Shown here: in pieces, positions 2,277 to 30,232 of the stretch
Layout: each line of letters begins with the position of its first letter
How positions within the stretch are numbered: the first letter of the stretch is position 1
Assembly: GCA_028707065.1 (NCBI GenBank)
Contig: JAQTUZ010000016.1
Coordinates: 1 to 38,916 of the forward strand
Source of the DNA: Patescibacteria group bacterium
GTDB lineage: Bacteria > Patescibacteriota > Patescibacteriia > Patescibacteriales > WJLG01
Reading direction: 5' to 3'
DNA length: 38,916 nucleotides
The notes under the pieces: generated by a model
Seen by the model: only the letters and a program-made list of their open reading frames with translations
Databases searched by the model: none
What the model was told of the DNA's origin: nothing
Program-made: the position numbers and the translations under genes

Positions 2277-2359
2277 TGGCAGCAGTCCCCTTCGGGAGAC
2301 TGTTGCATGGCAAAAAAATTCGTTGGCAGCAGTCCCCTTCGGGAGACTGCTGCATGGCA
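2277..2359. repeat. Tandem pair of family F hairpins
   Basis: Two nearly identical units, at 2277-2312 and 2325-2359. Each has the stem GCAGCAGTCCC / GGGAGACTGYTGC around a CTTC loop and ends in ATGGCA. They differ by one base in the stem. The same hairpin recurs at 11618-11665 and four times at 29971-30232. Confidence 0.9.
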
Positions 2360-5783: not shown

Positions 5784-5793
5784 AAAAAATATA

Positions 5794-5935
5794 ATACGAA
5801 TACTACGAATTATACGCGAATACTACAAACTCCGCGAACCATTTATAATTCCCCTCTTGGGAGGGGTGCCGAGCCCGGCGAGGCGGGGTGGGTTTTCGGT
5901 TCGCGGTATTCGCGAAGAATTCGTAGTATTCGTAT
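5794..5935. repeat. Palindromic intergenic element, family A (copy A2) carrying a nested family H element
   Basis: Arms 5794-5840 and 5898-5935 are near-perfect inverted copies, from ATACGAATACTACGAATT at the left end to AATTCGTAGTATTCGTAT at the right. The loop is occupied by a family H element (5849-5895). It lies in the divergent gap between the sugar transferase gene and holB. Confidence 0.9.
5849..5895. repeat. Family H element nested in the loop of A2
   Basis: CCCCTCTTGGGAGGGG followed by TGCCGAGCCCGGCGAGGCGG and GTGGG. It is the reverse complement of the element at 18454-18503 with only a few differences. Confidence 0.85.
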
Positions 5936-6018
5936 CATGTCATGCAATACTTAAATTAGCAGAAAAATGCGCAAAAATCAAGCTTGCCTAAACAAAACGG
6001 GAATGATAAGATTTGAGT

Positions 6019-12933: not shown

Positions 12934-13015
12934 TAATTGAAAATTGAAAATTATTTGCCTGCCCGCGGACGCGGGACGCGGCCAGGGAAAATTGTGAATT
13001 GAAAATTGGAAATTT
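12934..13015. repeat. Family D words flanking a GC-rich block
   Basis: AATTGAAAATTGAAAATT (from 12936) and AATTGAAAATTGGAAATT (from 12998) are direct copies. Between them lies a 30-base GC-rich block (12957-12986) with CCCGCGGACGCGGG, which looks like a separate insertion. Confidence 0.6.
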
Positions 13016-13020
13016 ATCAT

Positions 13021-14127
13021 ATGGATATAAAGAAAATACAAGAAATTTTGAAGGACGAGCCGAAGTTTAGGATCAAACAGGTCTATGAGGCGGTTTTCGC
13101 CAAATTTATCGAGAATTGGGACGAGGCGACTAATCTGCCCGCGGCTTTGCGCGAAAAATTAAAAGCTGAAGCTCCGCTCGAGATTAAGGCGGAAATTTTG
13201 GAATCGGCTGACAAAAATACTATCAAAGCGGCAATCGATTTTAGTGATGGGCGAGTGGAAACGGTTTTGATGCGCCACGGCGAAAATCGCAATACGGTTT
13301 GCGTATCGTCGCAGATCGGCTGTCTTTTGGGCTGTGAATTCTGTCTGACCGGCCAAGGCGGTTTTGAGCGAAGTTTGAATTTTTATGAAATCGTCGAACA
13401 GGTTTTGTTTTTCGCGCGCTATCTTCGCCGCAGTCCGCAGGGCGAGACTGGCGGCGGGACAACCACCCCCAGAACCACCCCTAACCCCTCCTTCGAAAGG
13501 AGGGGAAATCCGGTGGAGGGGAATATCTCCGAAAGAGTGTCGAATATAGTTTTCATGGGCATGGGCGAGCCGCTTTTGAATTATGACGAGGTGATGAAGG
13601 CAGTCAGATTTTTAAACGATGAAGAAACTTTCAATATCGGGGCGCGGAAAATTTCCATCTCCACGGTCGGCATTATCGATGGCATAAAAAAATTAGCCAA
13701 CGAGCCGCTGCAGATAAATTTAGCTTTGTCGCTGCACGCGCCGGATGATGAATTGCGCCAGCAAATTATGCCGGTGGCCAAAAATAATCCGCTCAAGAGT
13801 TTGCTCAAGGCGGTGAAAAGCTATATTGCCAAGACCAACCGCAAGGTGATGATCGAATATCTGATGCTCGATAAAGTCAACGATTCTTCGGCGCAAGCGC
13901 AAAAATTGGCTGACTTGCTCAAAGTTCATTTGGGCAAATTGTTTATGGTTAATTTGATCTCTTATAATGAAACGCAGAAATATCGCACTTCGCCTTCGGC
14001 GGTGATCAATAATTTCAAAAAAATCCTTGAGCGGGAAGGAGTGGAAGTCGTCCAGCGCTTCAAATTCGGCCGTGATGTGCAAGGAGCTTGCGGACAACTC
14101 GCTGGTCAACGGAGCACAAGAACATAA
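13021..14127 (+). CDS. rlmN: 23S rRNA/tRNA adenine C2-methyltransferase RlmN with an in-frame repeat insert
   Basis: A 368-residue radical SAM methyltransferase. The motif CVSSQIGCLLGCEFC gives C94 (thioether/methyl relay) and cluster cysteines C101, C105, C108. MGMGEP is at 180-185 and the C-terminal catalytic C357 is in QGACGQLAG. It methylates A2503 of 23S rRNA and tRNA A37 in the family. Residues about 138-170, between the cluster and MGMGEP, are encoded by palindromic repeats (13431-13450 and 13462-13521) and read in frame without damaging known catalytic residues. ATG 13021 is preferred over the in-frame TTG at 13006. The C-terminus after QLAG is short and ends in RSTRT. Confidence 0.93.
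   Translation: MDIKKIQEILKDEPKFRIKQVYEAVFAKFIENWDEATNLPAALREKLKAEAPLEIKAEILESADKNTIKAAIDFSDGRVETVLMRHGENRNTVCVSSQIGCLLGCEFCLTGQGGFERSLNFYEIVEQVLFFARYLRRSPQGETGGGTTTPRTTPNPSFERRGNPVEGNISERVSNIVFMGMGEPLLNYDEVMKAVRFLNDEETFNIGARKISISTVGIIDGIKKLANEPLQINLALSLHAPDDELRQQIMPVAKNNPLKSLLKAVKSYIAKTNRKVMIEYLMLDKVNDSSAQAQKLADLLKVHLGKLFMVNLISYNETQKYRTSPSAVINNFKKILEREGVEVVQRFKFGRDVQGACGQLAGQRSTRT
13431..13521. repeat. Composite F-type plus H-type palindromic insert inside rlmN
   Basis: First an F-type hairpin, CAGTCC...GACTG (13431-13450), then an H-type segment with the perfect hairpin CCCCTCC...GGAGGGG (13485-13505) and outer CCACC/GGTGG pairing. Translated it gives a G/T/P/R-rich loop (SPQGETGGGTTTPRTTPNP and on). 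Confidence 0.85.
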
Positions 14128-16835: not shown

Positions 16836-18026
16836 ATGAAAAGAGTCGGTGTAATATTGGTTAACTATAAAGATTACGCGCAACGATTCTTAATGGATTG
16901 CCGCGATTCTTTGCGCGCCATGGATTATCCCCATGAGGCGCTGGCTTTTTATATCGTCGACAATGAAACCGGCGATGAAAGTTTTGCCTACTTGCAAGAT
17001 AATTTTTCCGAAGCGAAAATATTGCGTAATAAAAACAATGACGGTTTTGCCAAAGGTAATAATGACGGGATGAAAGTCGCGCTTGCCGATGGCTGCGAAT
17101 ATGTTTTTCTCTTGAATATGGATACGGTTATTGAGCCAAACGCGCTCGCGGAAATGGTTAAAACCGCCGAAGCTGACGCTAAGATTGGCGCCGTACAAGC
17201 GCGGCTGATGCTGGCCTCAGTTCCGCTGGCCCCGTCAGAGTCTCCCGCCGAGGGGACTCTGACGAAATCAGCGGCAGAGTCCGCTGACGCGAGACTCTGC
17301 CGGAGCCAAAAAATAAATTCGCTCGGCAACATCACTCATTTTCTTGGCTTCGGCTATTCGATTGGTTATGGCGAAGAATGGAAAGGTAGTTATGATGCCA
17401 CGGTCATGACCGTAACACACCCCGGCCTTCGGCCACCCCTCTCGAGAGGGGAATTAATAAATATTGCTTATCCTTCGGGCGCTGCCGTACTTTTTAAAAA
17501 AGAAGTTTTGCGGGCGGTCGGTTTGTTTGATGAAGATTACTGGATGTATAACGAAGATCAGGAATTGGGTTGGCGGATCTGGCTCTCCTGCTGGCGCTGC
17601 GTCTTGGCTCCGGCGGCAGTGGTTTATCATAAATATGAATTCAGCCGTTCGATTGCCAAGCATTATTGGATGGACCGCAACCGGCTGCTGGCGATCTTTG
17701 AATGCTATGAACCGCTGACTTTGATTTTGATCATGCCGGCCTTGCTCGTCATGGAATTAGGCCTGACGCTTTTTTCCATCCAATCCGGCTGGTTCAATGA
17801 AAAATTAAAAGTCTGGAATTATTTCCTCTCTTATGATAATTGGGAGCGGATTAAAAAATCCCGCGCCCGCAACCAGGGTTTGCGTAAAGTTCGCGACAAG
17901 GAACTCGCCCGCCTGATCACCGGGAAAATCTGGTATCAGGAAGTCGATGACTGGAAACTGCGCCTGATTAATCCAATCTTTAATGCCTATTGGCAGCTAG
18001 TAAAAGTAGTGTTGACGTTTTTTTAA
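16836..18026 (+). CDS. Family 2 glycosyltransferase with two in-frame repeat inserts
   Basis: 396 residues. GT-A features: GVILVNYKDY, IVDNETGDES, NNDGFAKGNNDG, LLNMDT (DXD-like), then SGAAVLFKKEVL and WMYNEDQELGWR. The C-terminal part (about 285-396) has a membrane helix and basic segments ending in KIWYQEVDDWKLR. Residues about 127-157 and 189-207 interrupt the expected sequence and are encoded by F-type hairpins (17234-17262, 17272-17302) and an H element (17415-17453). Both lie in probable surface loops between core motifs, so the enzyme may still work. No Shine-Dalgarno is seen. Confidence 0.9.
   Translation: MKRVGVILVNYKDYAQRFLMDCRDSLRAMDYPHEALAFYIVDNETGDESFAYLQDNFSEAKILRNKNNDGFAKGNNDGMKVALADGCEYVFLLNMDTVIEPNALAEMVKTAEADAKIGAVQARLMLASVPLAPSESPAEGTLTKSAAESADARLCRSQKINSLGNITHFLGFGYSIGYGEEWKGSYDATVMTVTHPGLRPPLSRGELINIAYPSGAAVLFKKEVLRAVGLFDEDYWMYNEDQELGWRIWLSCWRCVLAPAAVVYHKYEFSRSIAKHYWMDRNRLLAIFECYEPLTLILIMPALLVMELGLTLFSIQSGWFNEKLKVWNYFLSYDNWERIKKSRARNQGLRKVRDKELARLITGKIWYQEVDDWKLRLINPIFNAYWQLVKVVLTFF
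17234..17302. repeat. Two F-type hairpins inside a glycosyltransferase gene
   Basis: Hairpin 1 (17234-17262): GTCAGAGTCTCCC ... GGGGACTCTGAC. Hairpin 2 (17272-17302): CGGCAGAGTCC ... ACTCTGCCG. Their cores match, in the same order, the pair after groEL: GTCTCCCG...GGGGAC at 29976 and AGTCCGCT...CGCGAGACT at 30046. Confidence 0.9.
17401..17453. repeat. H element inside a glycosyltransferase gene
   Basis: CGGTCATGACCG (perfect palindrome, 17401-17412) followed by CACACCCCGGCC, TTCGGCC and CCCCTCTCGAGAGGGG (17436-17451). The last part is identical to the intergenic copy at 18484-18499. It encodes HPGLRPPLSRG in frame. Confidence 0.9.
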
Positions 18027-19342: not shown

Positions 19343-19372
19343 ATTTCTCAAAGCGATAAAATCTGCGTTTAT

Positions 19373-19480
19373 AATACGAATACTGCGAATTATACGCGAA
19401 TACTACAAAACCTACGAACCGAATTAAAACTTGTTAAATTATTCGTTGTATTCGCGAATAATTTGTAGCATTCGCATCAT
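19373..19480. repeat. Palindromic intergenic element, family A (copy A3)
   Basis: AATACGAATACTGCGAATTA and CGCGAATACTAC on the left are inverted on the right (GTTGTATTCGCGAATAATTT, GTAGCATTCGCAT). It has no GC insert, so it serves as an empty form compared with A2. Confidence 0.85.
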
Positions 19481-19489
19481 GTAATTTTT

Positions 19490-26050: not shown

Positions 26051-26131
26051 ACTACGAATGCTACGAATTTAGATAATCCGAATTATATTTACTACAAATG
26101 CTACCTGCCTGCCGGCAGGCAGGCGAAAATA
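26051..26131. repeat. A/B-type words with a nested GC palindrome (filled site)
   Basis: ACTACAAATGCTAC is followed by a block containing CCTGCCTGCCGGCAGGCAGG (26104-26123) and then AAAATAGATTATCCG. The sites at 27138-27165 and 27180-27207 read ACTACAAATGCTAC or CTACAAATGCTAC plus AAAAATAGATTATCCG with nothing between. Confidence 0.9.
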
Positions 26132-26253
26132 GATTATCCGAACTATGTTTAGTTACTTAGTTAATTGGTCAATTGGTTGAATAGTAAACAAATTTTTTTA
26201 TTGATAAAGTTTGCTTCGCCACAACTAAGTACCTAATTTACTAAGATACTAAT
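26132..26253. repeat. Family B element, copy nearly identical to 27199-27320
   Basis: Starts GATTATCCGAACTATG and has TTAGTTAATTGGTCAATTGG on the left arm and CTAAGTACCTAATTTACTAA on the right arm. The 27199 copy is the same length and differs at only a few positions, a recent duplication. Confidence 0.9.
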
Positions 26254-27093: not shown

Positions 27094-27198
27094 ACTACGA
27101 ATGAATCCGAATTTAGATAATCCGAATTATATTTACTACAAATGCTACAAAAATAGATTATCCGAATTTTATCTATCTCTACAAATGCTACAAAAATA

Positions 27199-27320
27199 GA
27201 TTATCCGAACTATGTTTAGTTACTTAGTTAATTGGTCAATTGGTTGAATAGTAAACAAATTTTTTTATTGATAAAGTTTGCCTTTCCACAACCAAGTACC
27301 TAATTAACTAATATACTAAT
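27199..27320. repeat. Family B element, second near-identical copy
   Basis: 122 bases matching 26132-26253 except for a few changes in the loop (GCCTTTCCACAACC against GCTTCGCCACAACT) and right arm. Confidence 0.9.
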
Positions 27321-27809: not shown

Positions 27810-27909
27810 ATGCGAACCTACGAATTTTTCGCGAATACAACGAATAGATTTAACGAATTAATTCGATAAATAGTTCGCGGTATTCGCGTAAAATTTGTAG
27901 TATTCGCAT
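27810..27909. repeat. Palindromic element, family A (copy A4), inside the groES leader
   Basis: ATGCGAACCTACGAATTTTT and CGCGAATAC on the left are inverted on the right (GTATTCGCGTAAAATTT, GTAGTATTCGCAT). It lies between CIRCE and the groES start, so it is part of the message. Confidence 0.88.
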
Positions 27910-27919
27910 TACTAAAGTT

Positions 27920-29970: not shown

Positions 29971-30232
29971 GCCATGCGGCAGTCTCCCGACAGGGGACTG
30001 CCGCTTTTGGTTTGACAACAATGTTCTGATTTGCGCCGCAAGTTCGCAGCAGTCCGCTAATCGCGAGACTGCTGCACGGCAAAAGTCAGATATTTGCCAT
30101 GCTATTTGCCACGCGAAATATTTGTCATGCGGCAGTCTCCCGTAAGGGGACTGCCGCTTTGATTTGGCAGAACGTTTGAGGTCGCGCCGTAAATTTGCAG
30201 CAGTCCTCTTCGAGAGACTGCTGCATGGCAGA
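29971..30232. repeat. Duplicated pair of family F hairpins
   Basis: Unit 1: GCGGCAGTCTCCCG...GGGGACTGCCGC, then GCAGCAGTCCGCT...CGCGAGACTGCTGC. Unit 2: the same type of pair at 30129 and 30197, with GCGCCGYAA words between the hairpins in both. ATGGCA/TGCCAT words border most of the hairpins. Confidence 0.9.

Follow-up and report, generated by a model that had tools for sequence, protein, structure and literature searches.

REP-associated tyrosine transposases (RAYTs) are Y1 HUH single-strand DNA transposases. Among the hairpins associated with them, inverted doublets of REPs (REPINs) have been proposed as the replicative unit (PMC3116915), the activity of E. coli TnpAREP requires a bulge in the stem (PMC8266576), and the hairpins of RAYT subclass 2.6 lack the GT[AG]G tag (PMC6006769). 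CGTC REPs have been reported without a dedicated transposase, and REPs lying in frame within genes, including dimers of 20-30 codons and the Rickettsia elements RPE-4 and RPE-6, have also been described (PMC3733652).

The palindromic element examined here, F, resembles the REPs and REPINs of these systems (REPtrons): it is a short, imperfect, many-copy palindrome that forms inverted doublets, flanks RAYT genes and carries a stem bulge. In contrast to REPtrons, F has no GTAG/GTGG tag and often lies in genes, and conservation is seen in its stem core, AGTCC..GAGACT, within outer arms that vary with compensation. Like intragenic GTAG and CGTC REPs, whose dimers encode 20-30 residues, F is found in frame in unrelated proteins (PMC3733652); unlike the intragenic CGTC REPs, it belongs to a different sequence family and has an associated RAYT. 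Its likeness to RPEs is one of behaviour, judged by their descriptions rather than by RPE sequences.

An inverted F pair in a glycosyltransferase gene

The window, the whole 38,916-nucleotide stretch of DNA that we analysed, is contig C16 of a 1.51-Mb Patescibacteria genome in 42 contigs (a MAG, 95.4% complete with 4.8% contamination). It was compared with 60 relatives (the G-numbered genomes below). An Rfam search of the window gave zero matches. Its relevant features are the following.

16836-18026, plus strand: GT2 glycosyltransferase gene, host of the insert (ORF, 396 aa; PF00535, E 4.7e-12)
17228-17307, unstranded: inverted F pair (REPIN-like), in frame, 80 nt, residues ~131-158
17233-17264, minus strand: F element 1, arm CGTCAG, core AGTCCCCTCGGCGGGAGACT (17239-17258), bulged A
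17272-17302, plus strand: F element 2, arm CGGCAG, core AGTCCGCTGACGCGAGACT (17278-17296), bulged A
17303-17307: tail GAGCC of F element 2
17420-17455, unstranded: second in-frame palindromic repeat in the same GT2 gene, unrelated to F, with CCCCTCTCGAGAGGGG at 17436-17451
2284-2301, plus strand: intergenic F core
2331-2348, plus strand: intergenic F core, in tandem with that at 2284
13432-13449, plus strand: F core in frame in rlmN (ORF 13006-14127)
29981-29999, minus strand: intergenic F core downstream of groEL
30051-30070, plus strand: intergenic F core downstream of groEL, partner of that at 29981
30134-30152, minus strand: intergenic F core downstream of groEL
30202-30219, plus strand: intergenic F core downstream of groEL

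The initial annotation had proposed that two palindromes lie in frame in the GT2 gene, and comparison with the relatives confirms that the pair is a true insertion in which the frame was kept. The reading frame is intact, with no stop in the insert. All 60 relatives have a match to the GT2 protein; in most of them the match covers only residues 2-126 and 157-393, with a gap between. In a 30-protein alignment, QARLML runs on through a short linker to KINSLG in most orthologues, and the majority of orthologues from the same order lack the F pair. The insert-free orthologues on which the annotation had made its proposal depend are therefore at hand. Counted in the alignment, the net gain over the GT2 of G002, a member of the same family, is 27 codons. 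The annotation had the site right, and its limits, residues 127-157, shift to ~131-158.

The DNA fold of the pair shows the bulged A and has an energy of -29.6 kcal/mol (z -6.5). The cores of the pair follow each other in minus/plus order at 17239/17278, an inverted doublet as in REPINs. The doublet downstream of groEL (29981 minus, 30051 plus) matches it in order, as had been noticed at the outset, and also in orientation. The two hairpin cores had further been taken as distinct; their match to the groEL pair stands and their distinctness does not, since GTCTCCC..GGGGAC is the reverse complement of AGTCCCC..GGGAGACT, and the two are one family in opposite orientations.

An AlphaFold model of the GT2 protein has a mean pLDDT of 86.8 and a pTM of 0.88. 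Values below 50 occur only at residues 133-152 and 186-204, which are the two repeat inserts, although the low pLDDT of the F insert is partly due to insert-free homologues in the model's alignment. Segment 133-152 sits between strands 117-128 and 155-162, and the insert is thus predicted to form a disordered beta-hairpin turn or surface loop of ~27 residues.

The same gene carries other repeats in other species. In the sister species G001, of the same genus, the same loop holds an insert with the DNA TGTCATTCCCGCGAAGGCGGGAATCCA; this agrees with the CGTC-1 REP (PMC3733652) and so belongs to a REP family other than F; the exact pattern has a single copy in that genome. CGTC-type hairpins are also present in the GT2 genes of G036, G041 and G013, whose genomes contain 11, 20 and 11 CGTC REPs, respectively, against zero in controls. 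Several GT2 orthologues contain CCCCC..GGGGG hairpins; these and the CGTC-type hairpins of G036, G041 and G013 lie in three GT2 loops besides the F loop. The fold of the second repeat of the host gene, at 17420-17455, which the initial annotation had left unmentioned, was also computed; this repeat overlaps the low-pLDDT segment 186-204, and its CCCCTCTCGAGAGGGG family has 65 matches per strand in the genome against 1 per strand for the control. Elsewhere in the window, a 128-nt stretch occurs twice with 95% identity behind two neighbouring ORFs (26126-26253 and 27193-27320), and intergenic repeats of the TTCGCGGTATTCGCG / TACGAATACTACGAAT type lie at 5790-5943, 19370-19485 and 27874-27917.

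The F family and the reading frame

In plus sense, F is laid out as AGTCC-N-loop-N'-G-(bulged A)-GACT within covarying arms, followed by a GGC-type tail. The pattern AGTCCNNN{0,10}NNGAGACT has 50 copies in the genome against 2 for the reversed control, a copy number in line with a REP and the genome-wide recurrence that the initial annotation had anticipated. In the window, 5 and 3 exact matches to the two GT2 cores were counted, against none in 100 dinucleotide shuffles. Neither outcome that had been named as fatal to the proposal, conservation of the insert residues in orthologues from unrelated taxa or absence of the core elsewhere, occurred. Several additional base pairs lengthen the stem on its outer side in nearly all 50 copies, which end in a GGC-type tail. 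At most positions the arms and inner stem covary above all 500 shuffles (host genome and other loci), where the shuffles ignore kinship among copies. Many copies are single rather than paired. The flanks of all 50 copies were read, and the hairpin foot is GGC-type with no GTAG/GTGG tag 5' of it. CGTC REPs are recognized by a CGTC tag, an 8-9 bp stem starting with A-T pairs and a CCA tail; F differs from them in both core and tail.

Ten genes contain an in-frame F: GT2, recQ (close to the N-terminus), elp3-like, murD, GT4, cysS, a TPR-protein gene (as a pair), amrS-like, secA and rlmN. The names recQ, GT4, TPR and amrS-like (a radical SAM protein) come from reading the sequence, and rlmN, secA, murD, cysS and elp3 from profile or solved-structure comparisons. 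Against solved structures, RlmN, SecA and Elp3 are longer at the F site, and query residues 143-176 of RlmN face ~3 residues of the solved RlmN 6fz6. For MurD and CysS, the PDB alignments lacked resolution at the F site. A solved-structure search with the amrS-like protein gave zero matches, and orthologues were compared instead: eleven of them lack exactly 12 residues, and removing GCGTCAG..CGGAGCC (36 nt) gives the spacing of the orthologues, which makes this an exact 12-codon insertion. SecA and MurD are longer than their orthologues by a net gain other than 12, so neighbouring codons must also have changed.

The elp3-like (L018), cysS (L024) and murD (L019) genes hold additional repeats in frame, of families other than F (KSPLERGG, NSPLSRGVDAPRGR and TTPKPLLEKEGG), and the murD genes of G003 and G014 (L226, L228) have unrelated extra residues at the MurD position of the F insert.

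The core is 18 nt long in all eight single in-gene copies, so that the whole 36-nt unit adds 12 codons, whereas elsewhere its length is divisible by 3 in 16/38 copies (p=0.004, in a test chosen post hoc with the data already seen); within the same arm class the bias has p=0.018. Of the copies with an ATGGC tail, 0/23 lie in genes, versus 12/27 of the others (p=1.5e-4). Across the 50 copies of the host genome (G000), the type with GCRGC arms and an ATGGC tail is never genic, and the CG-arm type is often genic.

We considered whether hairpins within genes are retained because they are functional, for example as translation-slowing mRNA hairpins or as useful exposed loops. Their stems are intact, and four GT2 loops have been struck repeatedly by unrelated repeats, as such a role might lead one to expect. 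Young copies, however, would look intact without selection, most orthologues lack the inserts, and the F inserts encode unrelated peptides that differ by frame and gene. We regard a function as unlikely.

RAYT genes flanked by F

F directly adjoins RAYT genes in relatives from several genera, among them several genomes of the same order. In G005, G007, G027, G033 and G036, a gene for a RAYT of ~182 aa has inverted F directly on both sides; in G016 and G046, F lies on the readable sides of RAYT genes cut by a stop and by the contig end, respectively. The F-flanked RAYTs pass NCBIfam NF047646 (REP-associated tyrosine transposase) and keep the HxH motif. They score near the cut-off of PF01797, which has zero matches in the host genome; PF01797 by itself would have missed the link between F and RAYTs. 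Such flanking by a Y1 HUH transposase was seen in the relatives and not in the host genome, where Pfam and alignment searches of the MAG (95.4% complete, 42 contigs) found no RAYT.

A RAYT is present in 7/9 genomes with at least 8 F copies versus 2/51 of the others (p=3e-6, with the threshold picked post hoc on data already seen). F lies near 16/80 RAYTs, all within one supported clade of the tree, and none of 500 label shuffles was as clustered. The clade spans Patescibacteria and Bacteroidota and is mainly patescibacterial (Falkowbacteria and relatives); G007, of the same order as the host, shares its RAYT locus with a record of Candidatus Falkowbacteria (L094 and L129, identical in the tree), which places the host in a patescibacterial lineage close to Falkowbacteria. 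A RAYT of Bacteroidetes UBA9002 (L133) and its F copies branch with the patescibacterial members, through either transfer or a mis-binned contig. At two RAYT loci of G034 (L108, L120), the core has AATC/GATT in place of AGTC/GACT, with pairing retained. Two F copies 800 bp apart (C1:12235/13039) were considered as a RAYT unit and rejected, the intervening ORF being GT2-like by reading.

Subclass 2.6 is characterized by NH[LIV]H, YIH[QN]NP, ~179 aa and atypical hairpins. The F RAYTs partly resemble it, in length (~180 aa), NH[LIV]H, YIHxNP, tag-less hairpins and Bacteroidota relatives (PMC6006769); by motif reading, most agree with it in length, HUH and YIHNNP, and some have YIHKNP or YIHRNP. 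The F clade differs from subclass 2.6 in being mainly patescibacterial and in showing no evident WQ motif, which is listed for 2.6.

Because F borders RAYT genes in relatives and its copy number tracks RAYT presence, we consider it highly likely that F is a REP spread by a RAYT, and that the GT2 insert represents a REPIN-like doublet that kept the frame and whose loop is tolerated by selection. The RAYT would recognize and spread F as a short non-autonomous hairpin, and F units and doublets would move by single-strand transposition. With its REPIN layout, the GT2 doublet may be read as a RAYT unit minus its gene. It would have entered the codons of a beta-hairpin turn, keeping the frame and bringing no stop, so that GT2 would gain ~27 residues in a disordered surface loop that purifying selection tolerates; the loop would be translated and the protein would still work. 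Copies that break frame or fold would be lost, and frame-compatible ones in tolerant loops would remain. With no RAYT found in the host genome, mobility there is doubtful, and F is probably no longer mobile in it.

These 50 copies in a genome where a RAYT was not found, together with the 9 F matches of G026, which has no close RAYT, could also suggest a palindrome family unconnected with RAYTs and spread by gene conversion or replication slippage, the flanking being a coincidence of REP-rich gaps that collect hairpins. The direct adjacency on both sides in several families, the confinement to a single supported RAYT clade and the association of copy number with RAYT presence argue against this, and we think it improbable. 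That GT2 is instead a broken gene whose frame was kept by chance, as a species-specific insert and a second repeat might suggest, is very improbable given its open frame, its conservation to the C-terminus with 75% identity to the same-genus orthologue, the same in-frame pattern in secA, murD and cysS, the in-gene bias to 18-nt cores and a confident model outside the inserts.

A probable new REP family in Patescibacteria

In Patescibacteria, F constitutes a new family that is distinct from both GTAG and CGTC REPs. Literature searches covering Patescibacteria palindromes and in-frame insertion in the candidate phyla radiation turned up no earlier description. The initial annotation had known of no description of the family. 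As to the family itself this holds; the kind was known, F being a RAYT-linked REP, with genic REPs including RPE-4 and RPE-6 already described (PMC3733652) and tag-less RAYT hairpins already described for subclass 2.6 (PMC6006769).

More speculatively, and with a rather low probability in our estimate, RAYT-type hairpins and other palindromes may be recurrent, frame-compatible inserters into protein loops in reduced genomes; unrelated repeat families would strike the same few loops independently, and the usefulness of some inserts would keep them in place.

These findings give a tag-less REP family a likely transposase, in a lineage where no description of genic REPs was found. They also offer a natural experiment on insertion-tolerant protein loops: one genome with ten tagged genes and insert-free orthologues, and, between sister species, one GT2 loop struck by two REP families. 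Selection on the frame can be read simply from the core-length bias.
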